From the NCBI GenBank assembly GCA_014871385.1, contig CM026426.1:39751291-39815290 (forward strand): 64,000 nt of DNA, in the 5' to 3' direction. The notes under the pieces were generated by a model that saw only the letters and a list, made by a program, of their open reading frames with translations, did not search any database and was not told the DNA's origin. The translations under genes and the position numbers were made by a program. Source of the stretch: Ceratodon purpureus. Taxonomy: Eukaryota > Streptophyta > Bryopsida > Pseudoditrichales > Ditrichaceae. Of the stretch, positions 2,991 to 36,961 are shown piece by piece. Position 1 is the first letter of the stretch; every line of letters starts with the position of its first letter.

Positions 2991-3000
2991 GGAGGGAGAC

Positions 3001-3075
3001 TTGTATGCGAGCAAAGAGCGGAGAGCGGAGAGCAGAGAGCAGAGATTTGGAGAGCGGAGAGCAGAAAATGGGCTC
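3001..3075 (+). repeat. Left terminal repeat of giant element 1
   Basis: GTATGCGAGC is followed by degenerate tandem 7-mers of the form AGAGCGG/AGAGCAG. A stretch reading GATTTGGAGAGCGGAGAGC is shared with the right end of element 2 (read inverted). This marks both as the same end type, the 'transposase-side' end. Confidence 0.8.
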
Positions 3076-3491
3076 TGAAATCTAAAAACAATATTTTTTT
3101 ACTAAAATTAGACACTAAAAATTAGAAAATTAGAATATTCCGAGAATATTCTTCAATTGTTACCTATTAAAAGCTGAATTTATGACCTATGACCGTGGAA
3201 TTTTTTCAAATATTCAGGGAACTATATGACATATTGATCCTATTACCGTTTTATTGTTTTAAATATTTTTGGTGGTGGATTAAAAAATTGACGCATTCCT
3301 GTGAATTTCTGCTTGTTATTGATCCCATTCCGTCTGATGAATGTTGGTGTCTGGTGCAATGTCCGTGATCTTAGGGCACCAAGTCAATGCCTTAAGATAT
3401 ATAAGTTCAAAGTGAGAGGAATGTCTTCTTCTTTTCTGCCTTCTTTTTGTTTTGTGTAAGAGACACTTATATTTTGTACCGATCCTCAATT

Positions 3492-3980
3492 ATGGAGGAC
3501 ATCGAAGTGGTTGCTGTTTCCCTTGGTGATGTTGTGTGCCCGTTTCAACCTTACGTGGAGGTTGAGGGGGAAGACGAGCTATTTGGATGTGGCGAAGCAC
3601 TTACACTTCCGGAGGTCGTGGATGTTGGAGTGGAGTTGAGAGGAGACCATACAGTGTTACAAGATCCTAGGGAGATCATAGTGGTTGAGGACGAGGTGGA
3701 GAAGCCGCTGCCAGCTCATGCATACTCTAAGGTTGGGAAGATCCCACCCGGGACTTATTCGAGGGAAGCACTTAAAGGGTCAAGTGGGAGTAGTCCATTA
3801 GTGAAACGTCCCTACCTAGGTTTGGGAGTGCCTAGAGTCGAACCCAAAATGGACAAGAATGTAGCTTCTCAAGTACTAGAGTCTGATTTGGTAGATATGC
3901 TGAGAATGCAAAGGGCAAAGCTAAACGCATTAAGTACAGAGAATGAAATAGCTATTTGCAGCAGTTTAATGGTTGAATAA
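3492..3980 (+). CDS. Giant-element small acidic protein 1, copy 1 (162 aa)
   Basis: No known domain is recognised. The ATG at 3492 is chosen because the M-E-D start and the following stretch (VVSL.D-V-CPFQPYVEVE) match the 150-residue protein at 35566-36018 in element 2. A second conserved block, HAYSKVGKIP-x-GTYSRE, lies mid-protein. Just before it is a hydrophobic core followed by acidic residues (R-E-I-I-V-V-E-D-E), the layout of a SUMO-interacting motif; element 2 has D-D-I-I-V-L-E-E-D there. The C-termini differ between copies. The gene lies just inside the terminal repeat and is convergent with the transposase. It is intact in both copies, which supports a real protein. Confidence 0.65.
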   Translation: MEDIEVVAVSLGDVVCPFQPYVEVEGEDELFGCGEALTLPEVVDVGVELRGDHTVLQDPREIIVVEDEVEKPLPAHAYSKVGKIPPGTYSREALKGSSGSSPLVKRPYLGLGVPRVEPKMDKNVASQVLESDLVDMLRMQRAKLNALSTENEIAICSSLMVE

Positions 3981-4248
3981 AAGTGATGATTTACTATAAT
4001 ATTTCTGTGCTGAACGGGGTGAAGGGTACAAGTGGTCGAATGTAGTAATGTGACATGCATTGCATTATTAGTTGGACCAATTACTAGGCGAGTCAATCAA
4101 TGTGAATACTGGGACTCTATATATTAAAAAAAAACAATACAAATATGTATTGCTAATTTGATACAGAGAATAATTCAAATAACAACTTCTATGCAACCTA
4201 GTTGCCACCGTCCACGTGAAATAACATGGACTAAAAGTAGCCTGCCCC

Positions 4249-7200
4249 CTAGTTTTTTGCTAAAGGGTGTGTCAGGATTCCGTTTTCGAGAAGTATCTTG
4301 ACCTCGTTGAAGCTATAGGTAGGCGCGTGGATGAAAAGGTCGTCGTCGGGATCGCGGTTGCAAACCTTCAATAGGATGAAATAAACGTGCTTACAGTAGG
4401 AGAATTGGACCCGCCAACGAAATTTAGTCATGGTCTTCCGAAATGCTGGGCAACTGCAACCAGGGTTGGAGCTGATGGTGATCTGGTAGTGCGTGACATT
4501 AGGTGGAATGCCGGAATCCAACCCTATGATGCAACCATGGCCAGGATGAGGTATCATGGTGACAGAACGGAGGCGAGCTCTGAGGGTGTCGGAAGAGCCC
4601 ATGGAGAGTCGCTGCGGCGGATTAGGGCGCTTGGCAGTGCGCTTCACCATCTTCCCGTCTCTCTTGCCTGGATAGCGGTCAGCATCTGCAGGAACTGGCA
4701 AGGAACTTAGATTTGCAGGTGGGGGAGCGGAGGAGAAGAGGCGTCGTGGGGAGACCGGCCTCTTCTCCGGGAGCTGGAATCCAGCCGCCTCTAGTGCACA
4801 AATTTCTGTGATGTTTAGGTTTGTCCCGAGCTTGACAGGCCTGACGGCTGGAATTGGAGGCATCTCCTGGGTTGCAGAGTACTTAGCAACCCACTTGCGC
4901 CTAAAGCCCTTCACCCACCTTTCGATGTCGTCAGAACAGAAGAAGAATTCCGTCCTCTCCGAAGTGTTCCGGCGGATGTTGGTCCAAACTCCAGTGTAGG
5001 TTGGTGCAGCACTAGCGTTCACGTTCCTCACAATTCTCTCCGTACATTTCTTCTTACTGACAGCTCTCTGGGCCCAGCAGCACTTTGCAGAAGTCCTCAA
5101 CAATCTTGCGATGTGCCATTCCTTGACGTCAACCTTGGACTCCTGAACTGCATTCACGTGGCGGATCCCGATCTCGTTTCGTGGGGTCTCCGGGATTGTC
5201 ACGGCAACCTCTGCAGGAGATTGGCCTTCGTCGACCTGGGTGTCATCTTTGGTGTCATCCTCAACAATGATGGGCATCTGGGAGGTGCGAGCCCTGACAT
5301 TACGACCGGGTGCTTTTGGATAGGAGTAGTTTACCTTGTCTGGACGGTGAGATTCTTCCTCAGCTCCAAGGGGTAAGTCGGGCTTCCGCTTCATGGATCC
5401 GAACACTTCCTCTCCAGCTAGGCGTGGCAGACGTGTGCAGAACTCGTCTGCTCCAGGCATCTCTAACATGGGGTCTTCAAGCACATGCGGTCTCCCTGTC
5501 AACTTCGCCCTGCGCTCAGCCGCTCTAAGCTTCGGTTCCTTCTTGGATGGACCCGTCCCTCCAACTTCCCCTTTCAGAAACTGGTAGAAGTTGACAACTT
5601 GAAGAAACGCCCAAACATAGTCATCAACTGTAGCCACGTAGAGGTCGCGACACTTATTACCAGAGGACTGAAGCCATTTGCTGTGAACGGTTTCAGCAAG
5701 GTTACAAGTAGGCATTTCTGCAAGTTCATCCTCGGTAAATCTCTGCACGTCCAAAGGCTGCAGTGGTTAGATGTGGTTCGGCATTTAGTGCGGTGGGGGT
5801 GACTGCGAAGTAGAAATAGTAGTGAATGAGTAAGGGAAAAAAACGTACCCCTGAAATGAAGCCGCCCCACTGGCGATATCTGAAGTGCCAGAAAGAGAGC
5901 CACATCTCCAATCTAGCTAGGGCCTTCTCTGAGACAGCTCCAGTAGAAACCCACCAACCTTTAAATGCGAGGTAGAGAGTATCCGCCTCCTCCATTGTTT
6001 TCGCCCCCCGGTATTGCTGGCATATTTTCATGTGTTGCTCCCACAGTTCTTCAGGGATTTACTTCTGAGTATTATTGACCATGGACTGCGTCCAATGGAA
6101 TAGGCAGGTCCTCTCCCGATCCTCCATACGGTCCTCCTTGTTCCCTGTCCCGTACACGATCCGTACTGCATTCTAGTTGGCCTGTGCGCTGTCCGCCATG
6201 GAGCCCTTGAAGTTTGGCGCGGCAACGCCGTTCCTCTCCATGACAGCATTTAGTTTTCTTCAAAAAAGGATCTGGGCATCGCAATCCTCGGACATCATAT
6301 CACAGGTAGCAATTGTCATGACCCCGCAGTACGTGGAGTCGTACATGTGGCATGCCAACGTGGTCCAATCGTGTACCCGCTTGACGTGGTCAAACATCAC
6401 CCAGGCGTTCTCGAGATCACCGCCGGGCTGCACCCTGGTCACGAGGTCGACACCGCTTCCGGGACCCACTTCCGACATCTTGAAGAGGAACACCTTGTCC
6501 AGATCTTTCCCTTGGCCAGGGAATTTGTTCTCTTGGACATATGCCCAGAGACTGATTCCACGCAGCTTTGTTATGGCATCCATTACTCCATCATTCCTCA
6601 ACTGACGGAATGACATTACCTTGTTGCGAATGTTTGGAGATGCCATGTCCTTGCACTTGTCAAGGACTGGAATAAGCTCCTCCATAGTGAGTTTCTTGGG
6701 AGGTGCATCCTCCGGCTGGAGCAAGTAATTCCCGATTAGTACCTTGCTCGCCTCTAGCACGGCAGAGCTCTTCGTTGCTCGAGGTGTGTTTTCGACCTGT
6801 TCAGAGATCAAACTATTGATCTCTTCCTTTGAATCTGTTTAGTCACCAACCTTAACAGGGTGATCGTGAGTTCCAAGATGGATACACGCCCTGGTTTGGT
6901 TGACTGTACCAGACACGTAAAAAATTCGGGCCCCACAGGTAGCAATGCAGGCGGGGGGTTCTTTGCATACCTTGCATACAACCGTGGAATCTTTTGGTGG
7001 AGGCAGGTTGACACTGAAGGCTTGAAGTGTGCAGCCGTCGAAGTCGGTCTTGTTCACATCACAAATCTGGGGGCGGCGTTCCAGAAATGGGCAGTCCTTG
7101 TTGATGCAGCGCAGCCATCCGACGCAGGTGGAGGACCGGAAAGACAGCCCCAAGTCGTTGGTGATGTTGGTGGTGATGGTCTTGGTCCAGACGTGGCCGT

Positions 7201-7975
7201 CGTATCGTTTGTCCATTCCTTGCATGGACTTCGCTTGTGACCGTGATGCACCTAGTGCCGTAGGGGGCAATTCGAAGAGAACTGGTCCATCAAAAACGGC
7301 AGGCAAGTACCCTACTCTCTCGTGACGTATTCTTGAGTAATTTAATTTTTTCAGGACGTTCTTACTACCCGGTCTCTCGGCAAGTTTGCGAAGTGAAGCG
7401 ACAATACAGATAGTACTATTCTCTGAAATTTGAGAGGAACTGGAGGACTTTACTAGAGGGGGGACCGGGGGCCTAGACTCTGCAGCGTCCTGGGTGACAG
7501 GAGGGGACGACATAGCAGGACTATTTTCTTCATCTGAAGAGAGGGAGATGACCGGAGTTTGAAGAGTAGCATCCACGCCAGACTCTACCTTGACCTTCAC
7601 ATCACGAGGAAGCGGAGTTTGAACAGTGCAAGTGGAGGATTGACGAGGAGTAAGAATCTCTGTAGACGTCTGCATCTGCAAATCGGTAAGTCCATAAACT
7701 CTATATGTACCTGGATACAAGTGCCAGTACAGAATTCCATCGTCACCGCTCTCGGACAACTGACCTAGAGTGTGAGTGACCTCAGTTGTTATCTCGTCAA
7801 AAATCTCCTCCTCAACCGTGGCTGTATCCTCTTTAAAAGTGAATCTCATACTTAGGTGTTGGGAGGACACGCTAGCCATACCATCGGCACTGGTCTGAAA
7901 AGAGAGAGGGATTCCAAGGCCTTGAGCATAAAGGACGACTGTGCCTTGGACTTCCCGAGGAGCTGCGTACGCCAT
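4249..7975 (-). pseudogene. MULE-like transposase of giant element, copy 1 (WRKY-GCM1/FLYWCH-like + RNase H + SWIM)
   Basis: There are two exons: 7975-5849 and 5742-4249, with donor GG|GTACG and acceptor GCAG|AG. Exon 2 is 1,494 nt in both copies. The ATG at 7975 starts the conserved region (next to the Y-x-Q-G-x-G-I-P-L motif). Order of features: a beta-rich N-terminus; a sumoylation-type VKVE and a VISLSSDEE motif; a Cys/His cluster (CVGWLRC, CKVC, a late Cys, then THDH) resembling WRKY-GCM1/FLYWCH fingers; an RNase H-like core with a Y-D-S-T-Y strand and a M-A-D-S-A-Q-A-N strand; and a C-terminal SWIM finger (CSCPAF ... YCKH). Three in-frame stops (6841-6839, 6262-6260, 6061-6059) inactivate it, while the frame is otherwise open throughout. 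The family call is by motif and is firm only at superfamily level. Confidence 0.75.
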
Positions 7976-8080
7976 AGTGAAACGTAGAGTGGGGGAATAT
8001 GACACTAATCGAGTGAAGGTGCACAAGAATGAGAGACTGAAGAGGGCGAGTACAATGATTATATATTGTTGTAGTTGCAT

Positions 8081-8533
8081 CTTATGAAATGAATCTGAAT
8101 CACGAGTAACGGAAGTTAGTTAGATTGTAAGTAATAGAGTTAGTTACCACTGGCGCCGTAATGAGAATTTAAGTGTATTTATATTAACTCATGTCAGTAT
8201 TACTTTAGATCGTGGTTTGATTTTTTGTTCAAGAGAGCATGTATAGAATTAGCACTAGCCGCGTTTCGTTTTGGGACTAATAGGCAGGCCCTCTGTGATG
8301 ATTGACCCTTTGTCACCTTATCTATTTTAGTGGAGATTATATTGATGAATCGATCAAATTTATTTATATTCATTTGCACATCAACTTTACTTCAAAATTT
8401 ATTTATATTTAATTCTACAATAGCAAAGACCAATCACAATGGTATATGTCAATGATCGCTGTCATGATGGTAGGAAGAGTTGTTCAACAGTTGTTAGGAA
8501 TGATGAGTATATAAGCAGGGCATAAGTTATAAG
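8081..8533. promoter_or_regulatory. Divergent intergenic region between transposase and gene A (copy 1)
   Basis: An AT-rich interval of about 450 bp separates the start of the transposase gene (minus strand) from gene A (plus strand), so it probably holds both promoters. TATA-like stretches occur (for example TATATAAGC near 8510, about 65 bp before the chosen start at 8576). The same arrangement occurs in element 2 at about 31010-31630. Confidence 0.45.
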
Positions 8534-8575
8534 GTGTCCTTTATTGTGAGGAGGGTCATTAGGTTACTTAGACAC

Positions 8576-11500
8576 ATGAAGGATAGTGGAGGGTCTACTC
8601 CCTCCACTTATGTCACTCCTAAACCAAAAAGGAAACCATGTAAGAGAGATTTTACAAATAAGAGAGCGAGAAAGAGGAGAGCATCACGTAAGAAGGTAGA
8701 TTTGAAAGCTAATCACTTGTGTGCACCCGTGAAGAGGAGAGGAGCGGGTTTGCATGTTTCCTTGAAGTTTTGTAGCATTCGTAAAGTCATCCTAAGCTCT
8801 ATAGTGGAGGTAAAGCACAAATTTTTAGAGGACACCGTCGTCGAGGTTCAGGAGGAGGATCAAGACGTACTCTTAAGTGGGGTTGCGCGTGACGAGATGA
8901 CGGATGAATTAGAGTTTAATTGTAGTCAAAGAGAAGATTCACCGCAGCCTTCAATCAAATTTAATGACTCTTCTGCAAGCGGGCCACACTCTCAATCAAA
9001 TCCATATTTCAATTCTGATGAGGTAAGTCTGCCTCAACTGTCTTGAACCAGGGTATCGTGAATTAAATGTTTTATTTTAGTGTCCCGAATTAAAGTATAC
9101 CCGATAAAAAATGAAATTTATTATATTCTCAGCAGTGTTTTAAAATTGTTTGCTTCAATGGTGTAATGTTAACTGAATGACGTAATGGTAGGGGCCACGG
9201 CCCTTTACGCAGGCCTAGATTCAAATTAATTCTATTCCTGTGTAGAGCAACAAGTGGATAAGAGGGGTGGGAGATAAGCGTCAAGTCTCTGTTGTTGGAG
9301 CTTGTATCAAAATTGAGCATCTGAGAGTCGAAGCAAGGCGGGCGAGGCAAGGGATAGTGCAGGCAGGTGAAGGAGGAGTTGCCATGGCGGAGAGAGAGGC
9401 AAACATTGCAGAACGCGGTCAAGAGGGAGATCTGGAGGTAGTTCCGGGAGCGCAGGGAAATGTCGCGCAGGGAATCAAGCAGCTAAAGGAGCAGCTCGAG
9501 GAGCAAGTCCAGGAGCAGCTTGAAGAGGAGCAGCCGGAGGAGCAGCTCGAGAACCAGCTCGAGGACGATGACGACGATGACCATCAGGTATGAAAGTTCT
9601 AATGTCGGTGTCTAGATTAATTTTGATGTTGGTGCGTACTTGTTGTATCTTGGGTGCGTCTTGGTTGCTAATGGATATGCTGCTTGCTTGGATTTGATGG
9701 GAATTTGTGATTGGTGGGTTTGTTTGAATTGTTGGGATTCGGGATTGTTGAGGACTGTTCGGAATGTTGGGTTCGTTGGAGGGTGTTGGGGATTTGCTGG
9801 TGTTGGAGAGAAATGCGGAGTGTGGATATCGGAAATTGTTGAGGATTCGGTTTTGAATGTTGGGGAATGTTAGGTGTTCGAAATTGTTGTGGATTCGGCT
9901 TAGAAATTTCAGGGGAGTGTTAAGGATTTGGTTTCGAGGGTGTGCGAATTCGTCACTGTAAGATTCGTTACTTTGCCGGCGCCAATGCGACCTCGATGGC
10001 TGAGGAGGGGCAGAGGAGGGATCTCCCTCTAGTGAGGCCGCGGCCTTGAATTTTTTTTTAATCGTTACTCCTTGTTCATCTCCCTGTCCACATCCTTGTC
10101 CCCCGCGGTCTCGCTTTGTCCATCTCCCTATTCCTCCCAGTCTCTCCCTGTCCCTGCCCCTCTCTCTCCCTCACATTCCTAGTCCCTACCCATCTCCCTA
10201 TCCCTGTCCGTCTCCCTATCCCTGTACAAGGTTAATGGCTGAGGAGGGATCTCCCTCCAATGAGGCCGCGGCCTTGTTATTTTTTTTCTTGCCATTTGCA
10301 CCAAGGCGCAGTGCCAACGCCCACTGCAAGGTCAATGGCTGAGGAGGGATCTCCCTCCAATGAGGCCGCGGCCTTGTTATTTTTTTTGATGCCATATGCA
10401 CCAAGCCAGCACCGAAAGCACCACTACAAGGTCAATGGCTAAGGATGGATCTCCCTCCAATGAGGCCGCGGCCTTGTTATTTTTTTTGATGCCATATGCA
10501 CCAAGCCAGCACCGAAAGCACCATTGCAAGGTCAATGGCTGAGGAGGGATCTCCCTCCATTGAGGTTGCGGCCTTGTTTTAGTTTTTTAAGCCATTTGCA
10601 CCAAGCCGGCATCGTGTCTGCTTTCGGAGCAGACACGAGTGCCAGCGCCCAATGTCAGCTCGATGGCTAAGGAGGGATCTCCCTCCAGTGAGGCTGTGGG
10701 CTTGTTTTTTTTTTTAAAGTCATTTGCACCAAGCCGGCACCGTGTCTGCTTTTGGAGTAGACACGAGTGCCAGCGCCCAATGAACCATGCAATTTGTTTT
10801 TTAAATCGTTACTCCTTGTTCATCTCCCTGTCCACATCCATGTCCCGCGCGGTCTCTCCTTGTCCATCTCCCTAGCCCTCTCTGTCTCTCCCTCTCCATG
10901 CCCCTCTCTCTCTCCCTCACATTCCTAGTCCCTGTCCGTCTCCCTATCCTTGTCCGTTTTTTAATTTTCAACTTTAATTTGTTTTCATACATCATTGAGC
11001 ATGACTCCTCTTTGATGAATGCAACTTCTCTTTGTACGAGAACTTCTCTACTTCTTTGATAATAGTTTCAGTACTCAAAAAAGAGACAACAAATGATTTT
11101 AATAATTGACCATATTTTATTTCTTTTCATTTTCAAAGTACTTCACAGGATAACATGGGCACCGAGAGTGAAAGCAAGGGGCCTGAGGAGACTGAGGTAT
11201 TCTTATTGCTGTAATAATGTTTTGATTTCACATGCTCAAATTATCTTTCATTATTTAAGTAAAGGAATAGAAAGATCATTCAAATAAACATGCCTTCTAA
11301 CTTTCTCATATGTTTTGTACATTCACGTAGGCTCTGATGCTCCCGACATGTCTGTTAATTCTCCAATCTCTGTGATCAACCTTTCAGACCTGTCAGACCC
11401 AGAGGATGAGCGTCATTGTACCTGTGATTTAGCCATTCCTTTAGGTTTAGATACTGAACCTTTCGAGGTGCAGTCACCCCAATACATGCCTACATTGCCT

Positions 11501-11749
11501 GTTTATGAGCCCACCTCTCCGGTGTACATGCCCACCTCGCCACGTCTTGCTACACCGCCGTCTTCGCCAAATCCACCAGCTTCACCTTTGGTGTTGAGGA
11601 GGCCTGCCCATGTAGTCTTTGCCCTTCCGGCAATCTTGCCCAGCGCTTGCTGTCAAACGAGGCGGTTTTGGAGGAGGCGCCATCATTGGAATAGTAGAGA
11701 GGCTAGACAGTACTATGGAAGGGCTCCTCGTAGAGTGGCACGGCCTTGA
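8576..11749 (+). CDS. Giant-element gene A, copy 1: basic N-terminus, acidic Gln/Glu segment, CTD-like heptads
   Basis: Exons inferred by comparison with element 2: 8576-9022, 9246-9587, 11149-11196, and about 11331-11749. The first three are phase 0, and exon 1 is exactly 447 nt in both copies. The start gives an R/K-rich region (RARKRRASRKK) that looks like a nuclear localisation signal, then an acidic stretch. Exon 2 encodes repeated Glu/Gln-Leu (coiled coil) and an acidic run. Exon 4 has a SUMO-interaction-like motif (SVINLSDLSDPED), then heptads [21 protein letters not shown] resembling the RNA polymerase II C-terminal repeat, and a conserved basic tail with FWRRR. The exon 3-4 junction is out of frame here with the visible acceptor, so this copy may be broken. 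Whether it is spliced on to the ParB-methyltransferase gene is unresolved. Confidence 0.55.
9588..11148. repeat. Intron of gene A with about 100-bp minisatellite and duplicated flank (copy 1)
   Basis: The interval lies between two inferred exons. From about 9990 to 10720 it carries about six copies of a unit of roughly 101 bp (starts near 10232, 10333, 10434, 10533, 10661) including GGAGGGATCTCCCTCC and GAGGCCGCGGCCTTG, both near-palindromic. A pyrimidine-rich block beginning CGTTACTCCTTGTTCATC occurs on both sides (10060 and 10807). 9620-9980 is GT-rich with repeated GATTCGGG-like words. No coding evidence. Element 2 has unrelated repeats in the equivalent intron. Confidence 0.7.
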
Positions 11750-11891
11750 TGCTTAGTGTCTTGGATTAAATTCCAGTTGTCTTGTTGTTTTATCCTTTCA
11801 TTTATGAGAAAATCTCTAAGTGACTGTTAAATTCTATTTTTCAGAATCTGCACTGTAAAGTTTGATTCTTCATTTCTATGGCTTATGGCAG

Positions 11892-14800
11892 AGAACTCAA
11901 TTTACTCATACAGAGGACGTGTTGCCATCATCATCAAAGCCTCAGGACTTGAAAGACGCTGTTAAAGGGGAATTGCTTCATCGAACACAGCATAAAGTTG
12001 ACTCGATCAACGTCATCAATGCCGTTCGTATTCAGCCCTTCAGGAAGTCTCCCCTGCTTGTCCCATTGTGTAGAATGGTCGCAATGGCAAAAGTCAGACC
12101 GGTTGGCGAAATGGGCGTGCAACATCTGGAGAGGGAGTTCGTGAAGGGTTACAGAGATGGGGACCGCGTGATGTACATTTCCATGTTCAACACTGAAGAG
12201 ATGTCAATGGATGTCACGGAGGAAGTGAAGGCAAAGCGGAGCCCATGCTGGCGCAGGGCTAACGAAGCCTTCGAAGCTGACCTCCAAGGAGACGATGACC
12301 TCAATCAATTCAGTGGCAAAATGTTTTTTGTATGGGAAGGTAACCATCGCCTTTCAGCTCGGTTACGACACATCAACAAGCATCATGCCGACGACCCAGC
12401 TTGGCACATCTCTGTGCATTACATCATTTTGGACCCCCGCGGCCAAGTAGGCAATCTTCTCCATGCCATGCACGACATCAACTAGTAAGAATTTTTGTTG
12501 TACAATTTCTCAAATTTGATTTCGGGTCATTCTTCTATTACGAAATGTTTTCTAAACAGTTTTTTCTGTCCACAGGTCTACTGAGAATGACCATGTGAAG
12601 AGTAATCTTCCAGCGAAGTTATTCCGCATCCGCTCTTTCGGTGTCATGAAGTTAGAAGAATTCAAAGATCTTCTAAGTCCAGAAGAGTTTGAAATCTGTG
12701 TGCAGAACAAACACGCAAGGGATAGATGGTTCACCTTGACAACGAAGGTTTTCATTGTGTTCCTATACCGAGTAAGAATTTTTTTTCCATGAATCCCCTA
12801 ATACATTCGTTATGTTACTTTCTTTAACTAATGCATTTCAAGTAGTTTATACATTGATTATAATACATTCTCTTCGTACAGAGGGAGATTGCGGTCGCCT
12901 CGGATCAGGCAGCAAGAGCATACATGGAGAACACGCCAAAAGAAGATCAATCTGCGTCTGGAGTTTGGGATGCGATGACGACGGCATCAAATAACTTCAT
13001 TGATGCCATCAAGAAAAAGGACTTCACCAATTACTTGGCTATTGCGAATCCCAAAAATGGTGACGACTTCCTTGTTGAGGTGACTCGTTATCCACTAATA
13101 CTTTAGCTAATTTGTTTCCATGTCATTGTACTCCTAATAACCTAGTGCTAACTGTTCATTTCTAATTGCAGATTAACTGCCACTTCAGCGATGTCAACAA
13201 ACCTGAGATGACATTGGACAACCTGCAGAAGATTGTGCCGGCGGCAGTTGAACCCAAGTACAAAGCTCGTTGGTTGAGGTGGTGGAACTCCTCCCCGACT
13301 TCAAGGCAATCTTATAGATTCCCACCACCAGAGTTCAAGGAAGCTGACCTCGACCGTTGGCTAAACAGGGCTTCATTCTGGGCAGGGGTATGCTCCCTTA
13401 TTTCCAGAACTGAAAATGTCGTTGTCATTCTACCACTTTAATTGTCGTAGTCTAATTCTGTTGACTGTCTCTTGTAGTTGGAAGAAGCGGTCATCCAAGA
13501 GTTCGAGGACATGTGTAAGGGTGAGGAGCTGGACATCAATTGGAATGCATCCCCTGATGTTCAGCGACCAGGCGATTACGTGGAGAGTTGGCGTATTCTC
13601 CTTTAGAACAGAGCATTCCCGGCATTCCTTAAATCCAGGGCTAAGAAGACTTTTGATAAGAAGACGATTTTCACAAAATTCCCTGGAACGGAAGATGTTG
13701 TCAAGCGAGTCACCTACCGGTATGATTCTTTATTCAAACATATGTGCATTTCGACTCCTGCCGTTCCTCTCTCCCACATACTAAGTCATTCAAAATTGGC
13801 CCACACTAGGTACTTTAAGAGAGAGCTTCTTCCAAAAGGCGCCATCACTCTTCAACAACTCCTGAAGTACTTTACTTCATGGATCCAGAGAGGCTCGGAC
13901 CAGTGTATCTACTCTCCTCAGCAGTTGAAGAGGTACAAAGCCCCCCACTTGGAAGCAGGATGTTGGTATCTAGATTGCCTCCGTGGTTTTACAATTGATT
14001 CAGAGGCCGAGGTGAAATCAATACTCAATACTCGGGCGCCGGTGGTCGAAGACTCCACCGAAGCTTCAGAGGATGACGAAGAACATCAGAGTCAAACATG
14101 TGCACCTCAACCGAAGAGAGGGAGAGCTCGGCGACTGCGAACTCTAGGTTCGAAGTCCCAGACCTTACAAGATACTGGGGCTGAGTCTTCCTCACCAAGG
14201 AAGGAGACACCCAACGCTTCTCCAACTATAGACGTCCCAATGCCAACTTCGACCACAGCGAATGCGCCTTCATCTATTAGTGCTTGTGCGATCACACAAA
14301 GTCTCATTGAGCAAAAGAAGGCCAAAACTATATCCTCAAACAACTTCTTCCGCTGGAGCTTCGATTTCCACACATGTTTCCGTCTTCAACTCAACTGTGG
14401 ATTCCATGTTGCGGCGAAATAAGAGACTGGAGAGAAAAGGTGGGGGCGACCCAGATTGGATCAAGACTCAAGACTTCATTCGCAAGGTATGTTCCGATAT
14501 TTTGACATTTCTTGGATACATCCACCTCTACTCGTTTTATAGTTTCTAACTTTGCTTTCTTGTTTCCTCAAGTTTGGAGCAGGCCGCGAAAACAGAGTTC
14601 CGGACCGAAGCAAATAAGAGGACCATCTGGGAGTCGACTTGATCATTGCCGACATCCCTGAGAATCTTCCCGTCCCTTCCGTTTCCATTCCCCCACGAGT
14701 ATTCCGCCTAGGAACTCTCCCTACAAGGATTATGTGTACGACAACTTCCATTTTGCAGATCAATACGTGCAGAAAGATGGTGCCCTCTGCCTCATCTACA

Positions 14801-15866: not shown

Positions 15867-16149
15867 GTTTGAAGGAGGCTTCGGTCTTTCATTGTTTTCA
15901 TCTGATTTGATTTGATTTAATTGAACTTTTATTGCATCTTCCTTCGTCTACTCTAGTGCAAACAACCTAAACTTGTTATGATTCTCATTTCCAGTTCGTA
16001 TTCGTGTATGTAAAGGATGAAATGTCACAACTGTAATGCTCAAAATGTAACATGAAGAATGAAATGTTACAAAAGAAATGCTCATAATTTATATTGCGCT
16101 GTAATTTATTTTTTAATCATTCAAACTCTCACCCTTAACCATAGCCATG
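15867..16149. other. 3' flank of methyltransferase gene, copy 1
   Basis: AT-rich sequence with a TTTGATTTGATT microsatellite. It is clearly homologous, as an inverted copy, to 22260-22531 in element 2 (shared word GAATGAAATGTTACAAAAG). It is probably the 3' UTR and downstream region. Confidence 0.5.
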
Positions 16150-16713: not shown

Positions 16714-16759
16714 TGAGCTAATACAACTTCAAAGACGTCTGCTAAGGTTTATATAGATT

Positions 16760-17220: not shown

Positions 17221-17221
17221 T

Positions 17222-27252: not shown

Positions 27253-27397
27253 CTGCCAGAAAGTGCGCAAATTAGGAGAACAAGCACAATCGAAGAAAGT
27301 CATGCAAAGTTGACAAGTATGTAAAAGAAAGTAACGATATATCTTCATACTGTCATCTCTCTTGTAACAACTCAATCATCAATCGTGATTGATAAAA

Positions 27398-30300
27398 CTA
27401 TCTACGTGAGGATCGACTATAGTACTCCTTAGACTGTCTACAGTTCCACTGACGGCGCCTCCTCCAAAATTGCCTGGTCTGTTGGACAGGGCACGGCAGA
27501 ATAGCCGGCAGAGCAAAGACCACATGGGCTGGCCTCCTGACTCTAATCGGCTAGGAAGGAGAGGGTGGAGACATCGGCGGGGAGCCCTGTGGAGGAGACG
27601 TGGGCATATAGCCCGGGGAGGTTGGCTCATACAGCGGGGATGTAGGCATGTATACTGGAGAGGTAGGCATGTACACTGGAGAAGTAGGCATGTACTGTGG
27701 GGAGTGGACCTTGAAAGGTCCACTTTCCGCACCTACAGGGTTGGCTACATCACAGTTACAATAGTGCTGATCAAATGAGTCCGAAAGATCGGAAACATTG
27801 ATCACAGAAATGGAGGAAGCAGCGGACATCTCAGGAGCATCGGATGATACCTAGAGTAGAAAAAATCAAGTGAGGATTAACTTCCATTTTTAAAAGAGTA
27901 GGAAACAAAGAAGGGTACAGGGCGAATAGAACTCAAATTCATAAACATAAGAAAAAAATATAAATTGAAAATTGAATGAAATACCTCAGTTTCTGCTGGC
28001 GTCAGGTCTTGACGTTCGCTCCCCAGATGATCTTCATCAGAGTCCTAAGCAAATTGATAATTATTAGAAAAAATTGCAAGTATGAAGAATCAAACCACAA
28101 CCTCGACAAGGCTCCCAAAAAAACCTTAAAAACTCTTAAAAACTTATAAGATTTTCATCAAGACTTTGTGAGCATAATTGCATTCCATAACCCAAACATT
28201 CAAGGAAAAAATAAAAAATAAATAAATTCGCAAAAATCCCCAAAATGATCCCCACGCCCCCGGCCTACTGTCGTTGACGACAGTAGGTTTGGGGTTTTTT
28301 TAAAAATTTAAAAAAACAACAAATACCATTAAAATACGTATAAAACTTCAAAAGCTTCACATTATAACTAATTTTCTCTAAGCAATTATGCATTTTTATC
28401 ACACAAAATAACACCAAAAAAATAAAAATAAAAAAACACTTCAAAAATCCCCAAAGTACAGAAATTCTATAAAATATTCACATTTTAATGTACAATTTGT
28501 GAGCACATAATGCATTCCATTATCACACAATGTCAACAAGAAAAAAATAAAAATAAATAAAATCCAAAATCCCCAAATTCATTGGTGTGCCCCCGGCCTA
28601 CTGTCGTTGACGACAGTAGGCTTGGGGTTTTTTAAAAATTCAAAATAAAAAAAAATAAAAAAATAAATACTAGAAATGTACAAAATATTCAGATTTTAAT
28701 TAACAATTTGTGAGCAATTATGCATTTCATTATCACACAATGTCACCAACCAAAAAAAAAAAAAAACATATCACAAAATCCCCAAATTCATTGGTGTGCC
28801 CCCGGCCTACTGTCGTTGACGACAGTAGGCTTGTGGTTTTTTAAAAATTCAAAAAAAAAAAAACATAAAAAGAAAATACGTGAAGTCTCAATGATGGTTA
28901 AAGCAAGCAGGGCAAGTCTCAATGAGCAGCAGAAGTGCATCCAAAAACACACCACTTAACAAGCACCAGCAAGAGCAGATGCTTCACGGAGTACATATTA
29001 TCAGAGCCACGCAATAGGCTTTAGCCAAGAAAGCAAAAGAAACAAATAGCATGACCAAACCCCGCAACAGCAACTTCTGATTCCCCAAGGCTTACTGGAC
29101 AATTCCTCAATGCAAACCACCAGCACACCCGACACACCCTACGTCCCAACTGATGCAATGCTCTCAACAACTTAAAACACGTAATACTCTCAACAACCAA
29201 ATGCCTCATCACCTTCACAGACTCCCAACCAGAATTACTAACCTCACTCTCCTGACAGCCAAACCAGGTGAAAAAACATATTCAAAATGCCACAGCCAGA
29301 TCAAAACTCGGCCATGTCAGGAAGACCGAATCCAAAACACTAGCTACAAGAGATATCACTCGGACCAGCCTCTCAAGCATCGCTCCACCGAACTCCTCGA
29401 CTCACACTCACTTTCCACATTCCTAACCCGACACTACCCCAGCAGCAATAGAGATGAAATTCGCAATGACAAAAACAAATCCTAAGCGCTTCCTAAAACC
29501 CCCGTATAGAACCACGAGAGCCGGGCTGCTGTACCGACATTGCTGAGGGCGCTGCTCCCACAAAGTTGAATATTAGCTCGAGTGACTCGATCCGGGCATT
29601 CGCGAATCCGCACAAGTTCATCCAAAATGGTCAGCAACAGGAGTTCGACCACGACACACTCAAATCCTAAAAGAAATCTTCTCAAAAGTCCAGCCCAAGG
29701 CAGTGCCTCGCAATCCCAAGAGCAAGCGATCAGTCAATCCAAGCAGCCCACAGCAGCTTAAAAGGAGCGAAATCCAACTCCGATAATGCAATCAACCCAA
29801 ACCCAACCCACAAACCACAACCCACAAACCACAACCCACAAACCCACAACCCACAAACTAAAAGACCGCAACCCAACTAATCACAACCCATTTCCCCAAA
29901 TCGTACGAACCCAACTCATTTCCCCAAATATTCTATGCCGTACTGTTGACTAAATTCCAAGATCCGTACAACACCCCATTCAAAAACCTCATCATTCAAA
30001 CACGTGGTACTGTCAACCTCCTCTGGAGCTCATGATTCCGTACCTGGTCTCCATCTTCGGGGTCTTCCTCTCCATCGTCCCCGTCCGTCCTCTCCTGAGC
30101 CTCACTCGCATCCCCAGCCAGCTCGGGCTGGTCCTGTCCACCTCCCTCCTCGTCCGCCTCCATCTCGATAGGCGCCTGCCCCGTGGCCTCTGCGTCGACT
30201 TGCTCCTCCTCTCCTCCCCTCATCTGGTCGAACCTTGCTGCCATTGCCTCCCCCCATTCCCCTGCACTTAGAATTCCACTTCTTGCTCTCCTCGCAATAA

Positions 30301-31004
30301 CTCGCAACTGCTCGATGTCGCACACCTCCTGAGCAACTGAAACCCTCCTTGGAACATCGACTTCCCTTATCCTTTCGATACCCTACCCAAATAATTAAAA
30401 ATAAAATGCGTGATAATTGAGGGACCTCACGGAGTTTATCTACATCATTTTAAATTTTGCCTAATTTAAATTGAGTTGATACTAAATCATCTTCTCTTAA
30501 AATTATTGAATTAATATGAAGAATTCACAACATTTAAGACGGTATAGTAATACTAACCTCGTCGGAGATGAAACGTAGATCTGATTGAGAAATTGACTCC
30601 CCCGTCAAAGAGTCATTGAATCTGATAGACGGATGCAGTGACTCTACTCTTTGACTACAATTAAAAACTAATTCTTCCATCATGGCCTCACCTTGAACTC
30701 CACTTAAGAGTATCTGCTGTCCCTACTCCTGATTCTCGACGACGGTATTCTCTATAAACTCCTCTTCCTCCTCCACAATAGAGTCTAGAATGAGTTTACA
30801 AATGCTACAGAACTTTAAAGCTACAGGCAAACCTGATCCTCTCGTTTTCACAGGAGCACTCACATGGTCACGTTGAAATTCTACCTTCTTACGTGACTCT
30901 CTCCTCTTCCTCGCTCTTCTATCTGTAAAATCTGTAACACCTCGTTTTCGTCTAGGTTTAGGAGTGACATAAGTGGAGGGAGATGGCCCTTCACTCTGCT
31001 TCAT
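27398..31004 (-). pseudogene. Giant-element gene A, copy 2: CTD-like heptads
   Basis: Exons, all phase 0: 31004-30558, 30382-30044, 28044-27985, 27850-27398. Exon 1 is 447 nt, as in copy 1, and encodes a conserved STYVTPKPRRK and a basic RARKRRESRKK stretch. Exon 2 is acidic. Exon 4 starts with the motif [10 protein letters not shown] and then has five heptads, YMPTSPV (twice), [14 protein letters not shown] and YMPTSPP, with RNA polymerase II CTD spacing. A conserved RRPAHVVFALPAILP and FWRRR basic tail follow. Nonsense codons at 30725-30723 and 27553-27551 (TAG) interrupt it. The heptads lie before the second stop. The protein family is not recognised. Confidence 0.6.
28045..30043. repeat. 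Long intron of gene A (copy 2) with hairpin-bearing tandem repeats
   Basis: Three diverged repeat units carry the palindrome CCTACTGTCGT-TG-ACGACAGTAGG followed by GGGGTTTTTT (near 28262-28300, 28596-28630, 28804-28840), joined by A-rich sequence. The region also has a CCACAAA-type microsatellite at 29800-29870. 28860-29990 has no recognisable coding sequence. The equivalent intron of element 1 has a different minisatellite. Confidence 0.65.
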
Positions 31005-31632
31005 GTGTCTTACCAAAGGACTGACTCTCTCACAAAAAGACTCTCTGAAGAACTTCCTGCCCGCTTAAATACCTTTAAGGAACAACTATTTGGATAAAAT
31101 CCTAAATTCATATAGCATCTTAACACTATACACATTTTATACACTCTTTATATTAAGAGTATCCATAACAGTTCTATTGTGAAGTGTAGTTTAAAATATT
31201 AACCTTTAAATATATAGTCAAAATCCAAGCACACTATAAATTAAAAGATTGGAATCAAGCACTTGAAAGCATGCTCCTTTTTATATTCATTTTTTTAAAT
31301 GTAGAATTTAAAAGACGGCTCAATCTAATCTTACCAAACTTCATAACTAATAGAATCTGCGCCACCATTGAAATTATTAAAGTAGAGTTATAAATATCTT
31401 ACCTGAAATACTTCGGCCAGCAAAAAGTTACATTCCAAATAGTTAGCGCCGTCTCTCTTAAATCATACATTCGTTACGTAACAGAATGAATCATTCTCCA
31501 CCTGTTCACATGGACATTCCGACCTAAATATAATGATCAACAGCGATGCATTATTCCTCTCACTTTGCTCTTGCAATATTGCTTCGCCAGTACAGTCACA
31601 CTTCTCCCTTCTTGCCTGAGTTACCTGCGATC

Positions 31633-34600
31633 ATGGGGATGGTCTGTCTATATGTCCAAGGCATGGGCATCCCTCTTAGGTTTCGCGTAGATGACGATGG
31701 TCTAGCTACAGTTTCCTCACTTCGCCTGAGTCTCAGATTCCACTTCCGTGAGGATACCATCAGTATAGAGGAGGAGATCTTTGATGACGTTACTGCCGAG
31801 GTTATCCACACCCTCGGGCAACCTTCAGTGAGAGATGAGAACAACATGTTGCAGTGGAGACTCCTCCCTGGATCCTATAGAGTCTATGGTCTTACTGATT
31901 CTCTTATGGCTGCATCCACTGAGATCCTCACCCCCCGTCGCTCTTCTACTTGCACAATTCAGACTCCCTTACCTCGTGATGTCAAGGTCAAAGTCGAGCC
32001 TGGTACCGAGACTTCAGATGTAGAAAAACCTCCTCCTCCGACAGTCATTTCTCTCTCCTCTGATGACGATGTGAGTCGCGTCAAGTTGGTGCCTAAGGTC
32101 CACGCTGATGCTCCTCCTTCCAATGTCTCTCCTCCATTGTCCCAGGTCACAGTTAGCATTGTTCCTCTCCTTCAACAGCTTGCAAAGGCGCGTGGGTCAA
32201 AAAACATTCTAAAGAAGATAGACCATTCCACTATTAGACACAAGAGAGTAGAGTACTTGCCTGCGAAGTTTGAAGGTCCGGTTCTTTTTGAATTGCCCAC
32301 AGCTGCTGCTGGATCCTCTAAGCTCGCCGCCAAGTCAATGCAGGGAATGGACAAACGATAGGATGGACACTTGTGGACCAAGACCATCACGACAAACATC
32401 AAAAACAACTTCGGACTCTCTTTTCAAAGTTCCACCTGCGTCGGATGGCTGCGCTGCACCAACGAGGAGTGTGACTTCCTGAAGCGTGTTCCCAAGATCT
32501 TCGAGGTTAACGAGACTGAGTTCGAAGGGTGTACCCTGCAAACTTTTCTCATGGATCAGCCTCCTCCATCTGAATCCACGCTGGTGTGCAAGGTATGTAA
32601 AGAACCTCCATCATGTGTAGCTACATGCAAGGCTAAGATTTATTACGTTGTGGGCAAAGCGAATCAAACTAGAGCTTGTATTCACATAGGAACACATCAT
32701 CATCCAGTGAAAGTTGGAGACTATAGAGACTCTAAAGCAGAAATTAGTAACTTAATAGAAGAGCAGGTAGAGATGAACAACAAAGCAACGAAGAGCGCCG
32801 TTGTCTTGGAGGCGAGCAAACTCCTCATTAGGAGCTATCTGCTACAGCCCGAGGATGCACCACGGAGGAAGCTGACGATGGAGAAACTGGTTCCTGTTCT
32901 GGATCGTTGCAAAGACATGGCGTCACCGAACATCCGCAACAAAGTCGCGACCTTCAAAAAATACAGAAGGTACGTAGTCATGGACGGTATCACCAAGTTC
33001 CGTGGAAACAGTCTCTGGGCGTATGTCCAGGAGAATAGGTTTCCTGGTCAGGGATCTATGCGTGACAAAGTCTTCCTCTTCAAGATGTCGGAGGTCGGGC
33101 CGGAAAGTGGTGTCGACTTGGTCAGCCGAATGCAAGCTGGTGGAGACTTGGAGAACGCATGGATCATGTTCGACCATGTAAAACGCGTCAAAGACTGGTC
33201 GACGATGGCGTGCCATGTGTACGATGCCACCTACTGCCGCGAAATGACAATCGCCACTTGCGACATGCAGTCCGAGGACACGGAGGCCCAGCTCGTCTTC
33301 TCGAAAAACCTGAACCTGGTCATGGAGATCCATGGCGTTGCAGCGCCGAACTTCAAGGGGTTCATGGCGGATAACGCACAGGCGAATTGGAATGCAGTGC
33401 GAATCCTTTATGGCAATGGCAACAAAGAGGACCCAATGGAGGACCGGGAGAGGTCGTGCTTGTTCCGCTGGACTCAGAACATGGTGGCGTATACGCAGAA
33501 GCACTTCCCCGAAGAACTCTGGGAACAGCACAAGAAGATGTGTACTCAGTACAAGAATGCGACCAGCATGGCAGAGGCGGAAACTCTGTACCATGCGTTG
33601 CGAGCCTGGTGGGCATCCACCGGGGTTGTTGGCAAAAGTGGACTCATCAAACTCGATCAGTGGCTGTCATTCTGGCACCACGGCTTCTGCCAGTGGGGGG
33701 GATTCATGACCGAGGTATGATCTCTGCACTCTGTTTTGATGTTTTTGATACTGGTTTCCTAGCCCTAACCTACAAAACTCTAATCGGTGAAACTAACGGC
33801 ACCTACTGTCAAATCTGCAGAAATTCACAGAAGAAGAACTCACAGAGATGCCGAGCTGTAACCTCGCCAAAACAGTTCATAACAAGTGGCTCAAAACTTC
33901 AGGAAACAACGGGAACGACCTCTACGTTGCTACCGTGGACGATTTCGTTCGGGCTTTTTTACAGGTTGTTAACTACTACCAGTTCCTCAAAGGTCACGTC
34001 GGCGGAACAGGACCGTCCAAGAAGGAACTCAGGCTCCAGATGGCGGAACGCAACGCGAAGAAATGGGGAAATCCTACACTGTTCGAAAACCCCATGCTTG
34101 ATATGCCAGGCGCGGATGAGTTCTGGACCCGTCAACCTATCATGCCTGGAGCGGAAGTGTTTGGTTCACAGAAGCGAAAAGCCGACGTCCTTATCGGAGC
34201 TGACGAGGAATCTCATCGCCCGGACAAGACAAACTTCTCGCGCCGAAGAGGCCCAAGACGTGCCGTTAGGGCCCGCCCTATGCAGATGTCCGTCATTGTG
34301 GAAGACGACTCCGAACACGACCCCGAGGTAGAAGGTACCCAATCTCCTGCCCAGGTAGTTGATTCCCCTTTACCTTCACCAGTGAACAAGGGCGGCATTC
34401 GCCATGTCAACGCGGTTAAAGAAACTAAGGTGGACGTGAAGGAGTGGCACATTTCGAGACTTCACAAACTTTCTGCGAAGTGCTGCTGGGCCCAAAGAGC
34501 TGAAACGAAGAAGAAGTGCACTGAGAGAATTGTCAGGGGGCCCCATTGCACAGCTGCCCCGACCTACACTGGACTGTGGACTAACTATCGCAGGAACCTA

Positions 34601-35314
34601 GTCGAGAAGACAGAGTTCTTCTTCTGCTCTGATGATATTGAGCGCTGCGTGAAAGGCTCTAAGCGCAAGTGGGTAGCACACTACTCAAAGGACCAGGAAT
34701 TCCCCTCCATTCCAGAGGTGTGGCCAGTGAAACTTGGTACTAACCTAAAACTCAGTGAGATTCTTGCCCTCGAAGCAGCGGGCTTTCAACTTCCGCCGAA
34801 GAAGCCGGTCTCCCCAAGACGCATCTTCTTCTCTGCCCCGCCCCCTGCAAATCTCAGCTCGGTGCCAGTCCCTGCAGACGCTAACCCCTACCCAGGCAAG
34901 AGAGATGGCAAGATGGTGAAGCGCACTGCCACTCGTCCCAATCCGGCGCAGCGACTGTCCATGGGCTCCTCCGAGTCTCTTAAAGCGCGCCTCCGTTCCG
35001 TCACCATGATACCTGAGTCGGGCCACGGTTCCATCATTGGGCTGGATTCGGGCGTCGCTCCACACATCACACGGTACCAGATTACCATCAGTTCTTACCC
35101 TGGTTGCACTTGTCCCGCATTCCAGAAGACGATGACTACGTTGCGAGGCAGGACTCAATTCACGTATTGTAAGCACCTATACTACATACTCTTGAAGGTC
35201 TGCAACCGTGATCCCGAAGCCGAGCTTTTCATCCAAGCACCTACCTTCAGCTTTAACGAGGTCAAGCTACTCCTAGAGACTGGAATCTTGCTTCATCCCT
35301 TGGCGAAGAAGTAG
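31633..35314 (+). pseudogene. MULE-like transposase of giant element, copy 2
   Basis: Two exons: 31633-33714 and 33821-35314 (GAG|GTATGA donor, CTGCAG acceptor), about 1,190 codons. A single nonsense codon at 32359-32361 replaces a Tyr codon present in copy 1. N-terminal 1-170: unknown beta-rich domain, then VKVEPG (sumoylation consensus) and TVISLSSDDD. About 240-360: Cys/His cluster with CVGWLRC, CKVC, ATC and THHH. About 420-600: RNase H-like core with the Y-D-A-T-Y strand, a F-M-A-D-N-A-Q-A-N strand and a following C-L-F-R-W-T helix typical of MULE transposases. C-terminus: SWIM finger CTCPAF ... YCKHLYYIL. In MULEs this enzyme cuts at the TIRs. It is the best candidate mover of both elements. 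Confidence 0.78.
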
Positions 35315-35565
35315 GTAGCACTCCTTCTTTAGAACTGCCATTTCCACAATGGCCATTGATCATGTAGTGAATGATTTTAGTAATATCGCATGTACTAAGT
35401 CAGCAATACAGAAGCTGTATTGACTTTTTCATTATAAAGGTTTTGTTGTTCACATTGATTGCACTCTATTTCAAAACATTCTATCTTGAACAAGTGCAGT
35501 ATATACCTCGTATCCCATGACATGTACCCTTTATTACAACAAACATATACTTGTTATTAGATGTT

Positions 35566-36018
35566 CTAATCTTCGAACCTAACACGTTTAGGGTTGCCCA
35601 CTACACTATCAGTAGGACTAGCAGCCTCTGACTGTACTGCAGGACAAACTACATTTGCGTTCACCTTTGTTCCTTCACTTGGCAAGTGTCCTTGGTATGA
35701 ACGCTTCAACAATGGCCCACCTCCCCGCCTCCGATTCACTGATTCCCTCGAATAGGTTCCCCTTGGGATCTTTCCAACCTTAGAATATGCATGAGGTTTC
35801 AAAGGCAAATGTGCATCCTCCTCCAGCACTATGATATCATCCGAATTTTTTGAACGAGGAGGGTCAGCTCTTACATCCGGTTGCACGTCAACATCCGTTG
35901 TCAAAGGACGCCCTTGGCTGTTGGCCATCACCTCTTCTTCGTCTTCTACCTCAACATATGGTTGAAATGGACAAACATCGTCAGCAAGTGAAACAACAAT
36001 ATCTCTGACGTCTTCCAT
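35566..36018 (-). CDS. Giant-element small acidic protein 1, copy 2 (150 aa)
   Basis: Intact homologue of the 3492-3980 protein, convergent with the transposase. Shared blocks: M-E-D start with VCPFQPYVEVE, HAYSKVGKIP-x-GTYSRE, and a SUMO-interaction-like D-D-I-I-V-L-E-E-D. The C-terminus (N-P-K-R-V-R-F-E-D) is basic and differs from copy 1. No enzyme motif is seen. Its steady position next to the terminus suggests it belongs to the core element rather than the cargo. Confidence 0.65.
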   Translation of the reverse strand: MEDVRDIVVSLADDVCPFQPYVEVEDEEEVMANSQGRPLTTDVDVQPDVRADPPRSKNSDDIIVLEEDAHLPLKPHAYSKVGKIPRGTYSRESVNRRRGGGPLLKRSYQGHLPSEGTKVNANVVCPAVQSEAASPTDSVVGNPKRVRFED

Positions 36019-36059
36019 AACTGCTGTCCCTCACTACGGAAAAGAGCTTCAGAAAACAC

Positions 36060-36885
36060 CAACAAAAAAGAGGAAGAGACATTCCATAACCCTATCTTAA
36101 ATATCGTTGAAGAAGATGCTTGGCGCCCTTGAAAATCGGCTTTTCATTCATTTGAAAGTTGTCATCGTCCTAAACTGAATGGAAAAGGATGAGGATTGAG
36201 TAAAAGTCATTTAGCATTTAAAATTTACATAATAAAAAATAAAATGAAATTATGAAAGCAAAATAAAAAATAAAAATAAACATTTATAAAAAATGAAATT
36301 AAAAAAATAAAAGTAAACAAAAGCAAAAATAAATATTAAGGTTGAAAACAATGTGAAGGCGATTGAGAAAATGAAAGAGAAAATAAAATGAAAGAGAATT
36401 AAAGAAAAAGACTCTTTTGACCCCTTTAACAAGCTAGATAGAATAATGGAAGTTAATATAAAAAATTAAAAAATTAAAACAGAAAAGTTGAAAGGCATGT
36501 AGACTATGGCGGATGAATTCTAGCACTGTTAAAAAATTGTTACGAAATTAAATGTTACTTGAACCCTCTTAAGAGGTTCAATACCAATACATTTTAAGTA
36601 GTAATTTGCATATAAATGTGAGGAGATAAGGGGAATTAATGTATGCCTGAACTAGTTAGAAGGAGCTGGAGCATAGTAATTGGTGCACGTGAAAAATTTA
36701 ATCACCAAGAAAAGAGAAAATGAACTACAAATTCAATGAAAATACTGTAATTAGTCCACGGTTGTAGGGTCAAATAAATTACTAAAATTAGTAACTTTCT
36801 AAAAATATACTGAGAATATTCGAATATTGTAATTTTATATTTTATTTTTAGAAAAAAAGTGCTATTTTTAGGTTCTGTCCCCCAT
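36060..36885. other. AT-rich outer subterminal region of giant element 2
   Basis: AT-rich DNA with no coding evidence. Minus-strand open frames are composition artefacts. Near 36740-36880 it shares CCACGGTTGTAGGGTC-like and GAATATTC-type words with the outer end of element 1 (3090-3220). Confidence 0.5.
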
Positions 36886-36961
36886 TCTGTGCTCTCCGCT
36901 CTCCAAATCTGCGCTCACCGCTCTCCGCTCTGCGCTCTCCGCTCACGTACAAGCTACGTCC
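36886..36961 (-). repeat. Right terminal repeat of giant element 2
   Basis: Reverse-complemented: GTACGTGAGCGGAGAGCGCA followed by AGAGCGG repeats and GATTTGGAGAGCGGAGAGC, shared with the outer end of element 1. Confidence 0.8.

Follow-up and report, generated by a model that had tools for sequence, protein, structure and literature searches.

Giant MULE-like transposons of the moss Ceratodon purpureus with a linked accessory gene set and tandem arrays of dyad sites

Introduction

Among described transposons, two systems come close to the family of giant Mutator-like element (MULE)-like transposons that we report here from the moss Ceratodon purpureus, two members of which, E1 and E2, lie in the 64,000-bp stretch analysed in this work (hereafter the window; assembly GCA_014871385.1, contig CM026426.1, positions 39,751,291 to 39,815,290). 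One is the VANDAL/VANC system of Arabidopsis, where the VANC protein attaches to motifs that are repeated in tandem within the VANDAL element encoding it and brings about hypomethylation, protein and motif diverging together (PMC5735166). The other is the Ectocarpus transposon Sola1-1_Ec32, which carries a ParB-methyltransferase gene; the same source cites green and red algal transposons likewise (PMC12477816). A transposon gene with ParB-like and methyltransferase parts is thus not new as an idea. A first, sequence-only reading of the window had held the layout of the moss elements to be unlike described plant families; the algal genes are a precedent for one part of it.

As in VANDAL/VANC, the moss elements join a MuDR-like transposon and an accessory protein to a short motif of their own that is tandemly repeated in non-coding DNA. 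The VANC motifs, however, are 8-9 bp long and non-dyad, whereas here we find 24-bp dyads, large satellite-like arrays and a methyltransferase-like accessory; moreover, binding and hypomethylation have been demonstrated for VANC, whereas their counterpart in the moss elements is only proposed. With Sola1-1_Ec32 they share the format of a giant DNA transposon in which a gene of ~1,000 amino acids, with ParB-like and N6/N4 methyltransferase regions, runs opposite to the transposase strand. Transposase superfamily and host differ, and the available part of PMC12477816 mentions no iterated dyad array for Sola1; in addition, motif IV of the moss gene is non-canonical and its ParB homology is unproven. 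Like canonical MULEs (PF10551), the moss elements have a weakly SWIM-like C-terminus, a candidate layout of D-D-CxxH-E type and duplications of ~9-11 bp, but they give no significant sequence match, are much longer and carry accessory genes and arrays.

Two diverged elements in mirror orientation

E1 occupies positions 2992..17289 of the window (14,298 bp, without a flanking duplication), with its transposase on the minus strand, and E2 positions 20861..36961 (16,101 bp), with its transposase on the plus strand. E2 is bordered by the target-site duplication GGACAGGGAA at 20851..20860 on the left and 36962..36971 on the right, and extends to 36971 if the right copy is included. The mirror arms were recovered in two ways, by a repeat search and by blastn of E1 against the reverse complement of E2, and together with the termini they bear out the mirror-oriented giant elements with terminal inverted repeats (TIRs), of about 14 and 16 kb, that the sequence-only reading had described. 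Block identity by blastn is 66-77% across most of the length, in agreement with the clear divergence noted there, although the repeat search found the inner ends (15313-17289 against 20861-23088) to be more alike, 87-94%, along a stretch from the inner terminus to the 3′ part of the methyltransferase gene. Because of this difference between the inner ends and the remaining length, E1 and E2 are mosaics. Near the inner end of E2, a segment of ~0.9 kb (21150-22041) has no counterpart in E1; part of a 68-bp segment that neighbours it is found there as a second copy.

Both elements have the same gene set in a concordant strand layout, as originally claimed, with the transposase on one strand and the remaining genes on the opposite one. 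The two transposase exons lie at 5849..7975 and 4249..5742 in E1 (minus) and at 31633..33714 and 33821..35314 in E2 (plus); exon 2, which in E1 has the motif NLAETVH and a SWIM-like CxC..CxH pattern, measures exactly the stated 1,494 nt in both, and the intron phases, said to match, do so in the transposase, the one gene where they were compared. On the opposite strand (plus in E1, minus in E2) we find a small acidic protein block (3483..3887; 35626..36027), a gene A for a basic, KR-rich protein, whose exon 1 (8576..9022; 30558..31004) has the stated 447 nt in both and is directly followed by a GT donor, a carboxy-terminal-domain (CTD)-like exon (11327..11734, with YMPTSP-type heptads; 27401..27850, with one internal stop), and a ParB-like plus methyltransferase-like gene (11898..15863; 22535..27255), in both cases multi-exon, broken in frame and with an undefined 5′ exon. 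The heptads of the CTD-like exon, of YMPTSPV type, resemble the tail of RNA polymerase II. Each element has also a tandem array, at 10009..10776 in E1 (100/128-bp units) and 28137..28881 in E2 (~209-bp units).

E1 and E2 are best explained as old, independently inserted and now defective members of one family of giant transposons. Transposase exon 1 has four in-frame stops in E1 (at 6841, 6262, 6175 and 6061) and one in E2 (TAG, 32359-32361); moreover, in the E2 transposase Lys and Arg replace a conserved Glu and His, the Lys codon (33869-33871) at a position that is Glu in E1 and in 12 copies fetched from the genome, and the Arg at the His of the CxxH motif. The methyltransferase genes are broken in both. 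Recoding of the stops was rejected, since those of E1 differ (TAA, TGA, TAG, TAA) and open-frame copies exist. A composite transposon with E1 and E2 as a unit was likewise ruled out, as E2 has its own duplication and each element its own set of closer relatives; the "pair" of the sequence-only reading is thus one of two related mirror elements and not a joint unit, E1 having no duplication.

Copies, termini and gene order in the genome

The lists of transposase copies comprise the best 85 of 2,930 candidates for the E2 type and the best 85 of 2,918 for the E1 type. Among these matches there are at least 84 further copies of E2-type exon 2, with 92-94% identity and distributed over contigs C1-C13, of which 82 are stop-free, and at least 42 further E1-type copies with at least 82% identity (counted by hand). 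The analysis covered twelve loci in full, ten of them drawn from the E2-type list and two from that of the E1 type, as well as the DNA on either side of three arrays. Both ends fell within the fetched stretch in seven copies (E2, C8a, C7a, C3a, C13a, D2 and E1), and six of these have direct repeats at their ends, of 10 bp in E2, C8a, C7a, C3a and D2 and of 9 bp in C13a; when shifted ends are allowed, the exact matches measure 9-12 bp. E1 has none with its ends as placed here. Such duplications of 9-10 bp fall within the 8-11 bp of the Mutator superfamily (PMC6446971). The six copies are 14.5-17.7 kb long, and elements with big arrays are longer. E2-type termini read GGGGAAAGTTCGTAYGTGAGC at one end and GAGGGAAGCTTGTACGTGAGCG or GGACGTAGCTTGTACGTGAGCG at the other, with small variants. 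D2 is inserted within the methyltransferase gene of another element, and when its two flanks are fused with the 10-bp repeat kept once, the methyltransferase reading frame runs through without interruption, which indicates an empty site. Nesting occurs in both C5a and D2, with elements inside each other's transposase and methyltransferase genes, and C5a and C10a comprise pieces of more than one element.

The copies form a family of giant MULE-like transposons, probably of the cut-and-paste kind, in which a conserved set of accessory genes is linked to the transposase. Searching with the transposases and extracting the flanks, as had been proposed, uncovered many insertions with the same termini and linked genes: in the fetched copies the accessory genes accompany the transposase, instead of occurring only away from it, and the termini recur with their duplications at other loci. 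The gene order is methyltransferase gene, CTD-like exon, array, gene A, transposase (on the opposite strand) and acidic protein, and the complete set of coding blocks is found in C7a, C9a, D2 and D3; C6b, C1a and C5b show the right half only, because the array occupies the remainder. Point estimates of omega, the ratio of non-synonymous to synonymous divergence, were 0.07-0.14 for the transposase among E2-type copies and 0.12 between subfamilies, 0.28-0.39 for the methyltransferase, 0.29-0.47 for gene A and 0.31-0.73 for the acidic protein. The lowest of all blocks was the CTD exon (0.02-0.10, on 133 codons, because the splice aligner removed ~19 residues of the heptad stretch). Transposase pairs with C5b were omitted: one frameshift disrupts the reading frame of the pair, and omega came out at 0.51-0.56 or could not be calculated. 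A capture of host genes in the manner of Pack-MULEs was ruled out by the ordered genes, omega below 1 and copies on several chromosomes.

Three copies, C8a, C3a and C13a, combine a transposase close to that of other E2-type copies with a methyltransferase of a distant lineage, B, which is 33-35% identical in the copies compared (C3a and C13a); synonymous divergence (dS) between methyltransferases of types A and B is saturated, and omega for such pairs was likewise omitted. Between C7a and D2, dS is 1.6 for the transposase, 0.3 for the methyltransferase and 0.10 for the CTD exon, a contrast which suggests that the two halves were swapped as cassettes. Going beyond the sequence-only reading, we infer that subfamilies exchange the half formed by array and methyltransferase as a cassette, so that site and protein change together.

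A transposase of MULE-like layout

Exon 1 has 26 homologues, and residues D514, D580 and C609xxH612 are invariant in 24 of these, their catalytic assignment being by motif alone. Exon 2 starts with NLAET[VI]H in E1 and in 12 of 12 fetched copies, with the Lys in E2, and the CxxH pattern is matched in E1 and 11 of the 12, C10a being unmatched and E2 deviating. The SWIM domain PF04434 scored below cut-off (E 0.015 in E1, 0.12 in E2), with its CxC..CxH residues in place. Neither the open reading frames (ORFs) of E1 and E2 nor the 24 homologues matched the MULE transposase domain PF10551, and no Pfam transposase family matched the E1/E2 transposase or its homologues; hhalign against the window's own MULE fragment was not significant (Prob 0.05), and a PDB search with the transposase profile and a plasmid search with the E2 transposase gave no lead. 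Since the layout (~10-bp duplication, a candidate D-D-CxxH-E and a weak SWIM) is MULE-like but comes without a Pfam or profile match, we name the transposase MULE-like and not a proven MULE; the original MULE assignment fits duplication length and layout, and not the sequence-profile test.

The ParB-like and methyltransferase-like gene

The splice aligner gave ten exons, with a frame that is open in C7a and C9a and has one stop in D2 and one frameshift in C5a. The CTD-like exon terminates in a stop, and no good donor links it to the next block. A match to PF01555 (N6/N4 DNA methylase; E 2.9e-8, 34.4 bits against a cut-off of 26.7) covers the C-terminal portion of the profile. Scanning raw ORFs against Pfam had been unproductive. 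Motif I reads [DE][WL][NS]xG[TS]G, and motif IV is ADIPEN in lineage A (E1, E2, D2, C7a, C9a, C5a) and AEYPDG in lineage B (C3a, C8a, C13a), the canonical form in methyltransferases being [DNS]PPY. The DNA methyltransferase of the sequence-only reading is therefore backed by a Pfam domain above cut-off and not by motif IV, and the predicted domain may be inactive. The N-terminal region, with 88 relatives found, has the motif order VRP..L..F..GY..G......WEGNHRL.A, of GNHRL type, which we take to resemble ParB, a homology that is unproven. A PDB search with the profile of this region gave no lead, and a protein search with the spliced methyltransferase scored 8,000 candidates, none significant, perhaps because the database consists of single ORFs.

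Tandem arrays of dyad sites

Arrays, which the sequence-only reading had overlooked, were detected with TRF in 14 of 14 loci examined (the 12 fetched plus E1 and E2), with main units of 100-266 bp and lengths that reach more than 10 kb. The array of C1a, with 84 copies of a 128-bp unit over at least 10.7 kb and adjoining gene A and transposase, is transposon-borne satellite-like DNA. Copies of type A have their array between gene A and the CTD-like exon. Those of type B have it upstream of the ParB-like exon, and extra sites occur within a methyltransferase intron (at 8090-8595 in C13a, and one site each in C8a and C3a).

Units of unequal length have in common a 24-bp dyad with 9-bp arms and a 6-bp spacer. 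The type A dyad reads CCTACTGTC-GTTGAC-GACAGTAGG, with the spacer TGTGCC in C1a, and the type B dyad of C8a, C3a and C13a GGTACTGCC-GTTGCC-GGCAGTACC; three arm positions are changed between them, each change mirrored in the opposite arm, and both types share a TACTGYCG core. In the window, E2 has the type A dyad at 28264..28287 and the same site plus one pair (26 bp) at 28596..28621 and 28805..28830, and E1 has CGTGTCTGC-TTTCGGA-GCAGACACG at 10613..10637; a further 33.6 kb of window sequence contain neither the A nor the B dyad. The exact A site has 1,725 copies in the genome and its reversed control 0. The arm consensus of type A is identical in nine of nine loci with flanks 30-98% alike, A and B sites co-occur at no locus examined, and the type of site follows the methyltransferase lineage although A and B transposases are close (dS 0.16, C7a against C3a).

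The arrays also led back to the genes. Five clusters were listed for the exact A site, all on C1, and three were taken (9.14, 10.93 and 14.07 Mb), which had no transposase nearby in the best-85 lists given above; those at 12.16 Mb, with a transposase already listed beside it, and 18.45 Mb, represented by one site where the list closed, were left out. All three are flanked on one side by the CTD-like exon and the ParB-like/methyltransferase gene, and on the other by gene A and the transposase.

Proposed self-recognition and its alternatives

A conserved, symmetric and iterated site beside a putative DNA-binding methyltransferase-like gene, changing with the lineage of this gene, suggests self-recognition, and by analogy with VANDAL/VANC we propose that the methyltransferase-like protein of each element would recognise the element's own dyad arrays. 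In such a scheme the transposase would cut and paste at the TIRs, while the accessory protein, through its ParB-like N-terminal region and methyltransferase-like domain, would bind the dyads of its own element, on which the density of the array would concentrate it. The protein would then alter the state of DNA methylation or silencing, keeping the element expressed and mobile, and the CTD-like protein could couple self-recognition to transcription. Taken as a whole, from defective family members and cut-and-paste to self-recognition and cassette swapping, this best explanation seems about as likely to be right as wrong. A partition-like version, in which the protein would load on the palindromic arrays as on centromere-like sites (an analogue of parS) and tag every copy as self while subfamilies trade arrays, protein and transposase as cassettes, is conceivable but rather unlikely.

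Several observations weigh against self-recognition or qualify the evidence for it. Similarity-based collection of sites favours the arms, and the count of 8-mers against shuffles is a less biased test for this reason. It supports the dyad: of 22 unit consensuses, up to 12 contain its 8-mers, against a maximum of 5 in 50 shuffles, although these were mononucleotide shuffles, two arrays were counted twice, as monomer and dimer, and the commonest 8-mer is poly-A (13 of 22). The arrays of E1 and C10a have other, weaker inverted repeats, in C10a weak ones only. The covariation of site and gene partly reflects linkage, because array and methyltransferase share one half of the element, and gene A and the CTD exon went undetected in the B-type copies C8a, C3a and C13a at E 1e-3. 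On the protein side, the departure of motif IV from [DNS]PPY would fit an inactive enzyme, and no ParB family appears in the Pfam matches of 51 aligned members of the N-terminal region (best of any family E 0.023). PF02195 has zero matches in this genome, against matches in 10 of 14 control genomes; relatives of the region are absent from the viral contigs and phages searched; hhalign against four P1-type ParBs, a weak test, was no better than the control; and the one hint of ParB, a match to a "ParB-like" PHROG, stayed below threshold, in 4 members out of the 51 (best E 0.16) and behind other families of lower E.

The dyad could also be structural, its hairpins or cruciforms seeding slippage and array expansion and the arrays being functionless by-products. 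Array length and unit size do vary widely, hairpins would equally favour the symmetric changes between A and B arms, and the two arms of B sites often fail to match throughout, full complementarity being seen in 8/17, 11/23 and 14/27 sites. A hairpin, however, requires pairing and not a particular sequence, and for this reason the 18 arm bases that all nine A-type loci keep in their consensus, with flanks down to 30% identity, count against such an origin, as does the core that B has in common with A; we regard it as unlikely. In another view, the dyad is bound instead by the transposase, by the basic product of gene A or by some host factor, its role being in excision, replication or transcription; this finds some favour in the array adjoining gene A in A-type copies and in gene A being small, basic and under omega below 1. 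We nonetheless judge it improbable, given that site type tracks the methyltransferase lineage between copies whose transposases are close, and that arrays remain in B-type copies where gene A is undetected.

A different question is whether the family has already been catalogued, for instance under the name Lanisha or among unnamed MuDR families that Repbase lists for this moss. Lanisha is said to originate from Ceratodon purpureus. It is, like ours, a family of cut-and-paste type, and was put forward by Maumus, McDaniel and Carey (Repbase Rep. 2020, as cited by PMC12730594). The latter source places it in the CMCT group, for which duplications of 2-5 bp and the motifs C(2)C and H(3-4)H are described, whereas the E1/E2 family has CxxH and ~10 bp; by this group description both zinc motif and duplication length set the two apart. 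Among the papers listed in our search of the open-access literature, which as far as we know does not cover Repbase Reports, none was seen to describe this transposon family or the dyad arrays. A previous cataloguing appears improbable.

Chromosomal setting and neighbouring features

The window lies at 39.75 Mb of the 110.5-Mb contig C6, in an assembly of 362.5 Mb where nine other large contigs measure 16-29 Mb. The U and V chromosomes of C. purpureus are given as >100 Mb each, in a genome of 360 Mb, in PMC8000587, and E1 and E2 thus probably reside on a sex chromosome of the moss. Among the matches listed, stops interrupt E1-type exon 2 in 17 of the 19 copies located on C6 and in 2 of the 23 on other contigs (Fisher p 1.2e-7), in counts made by hand and with copies that may share inherited stops. 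Such a build-up of decayed copies on C6 fits weak purging on a non-recombining sex chromosome.

Other features noted in the window, on the minus strand, are the remains of an ordinary MULE (41971-45140; PF10551 E 1.1e-11, fragments 42735-44243) with a SWIM fragment below cut-off, a Harbinger-type Plant_tran transposase ORF of 456 amino acids in open frame (50431-51798), a retrotransposon gag fragment (58072-58857; PF03732) and a HAD-like hydrolase ORF of 433 amino acids (39240-40538), possibly a host gene.

Implications

If true, the proposed self-recognition would join the ParB-methyltransferase genes of algal transposons and the tandem recognition motifs of VANC type into one testable system, and would propose a DNA target that the algal report, in its available part, leaves unnamed. 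It would also show a selfish element creating satellite-like arrays, with the 1,725 exact sites as their trace. Moreover, types A, B and E1 would offer a natural series of protein-site pairs for studying how DNA recognition and its target co-evolve, with decayed and intact copies available on a probable non-recombining sex chromosome.

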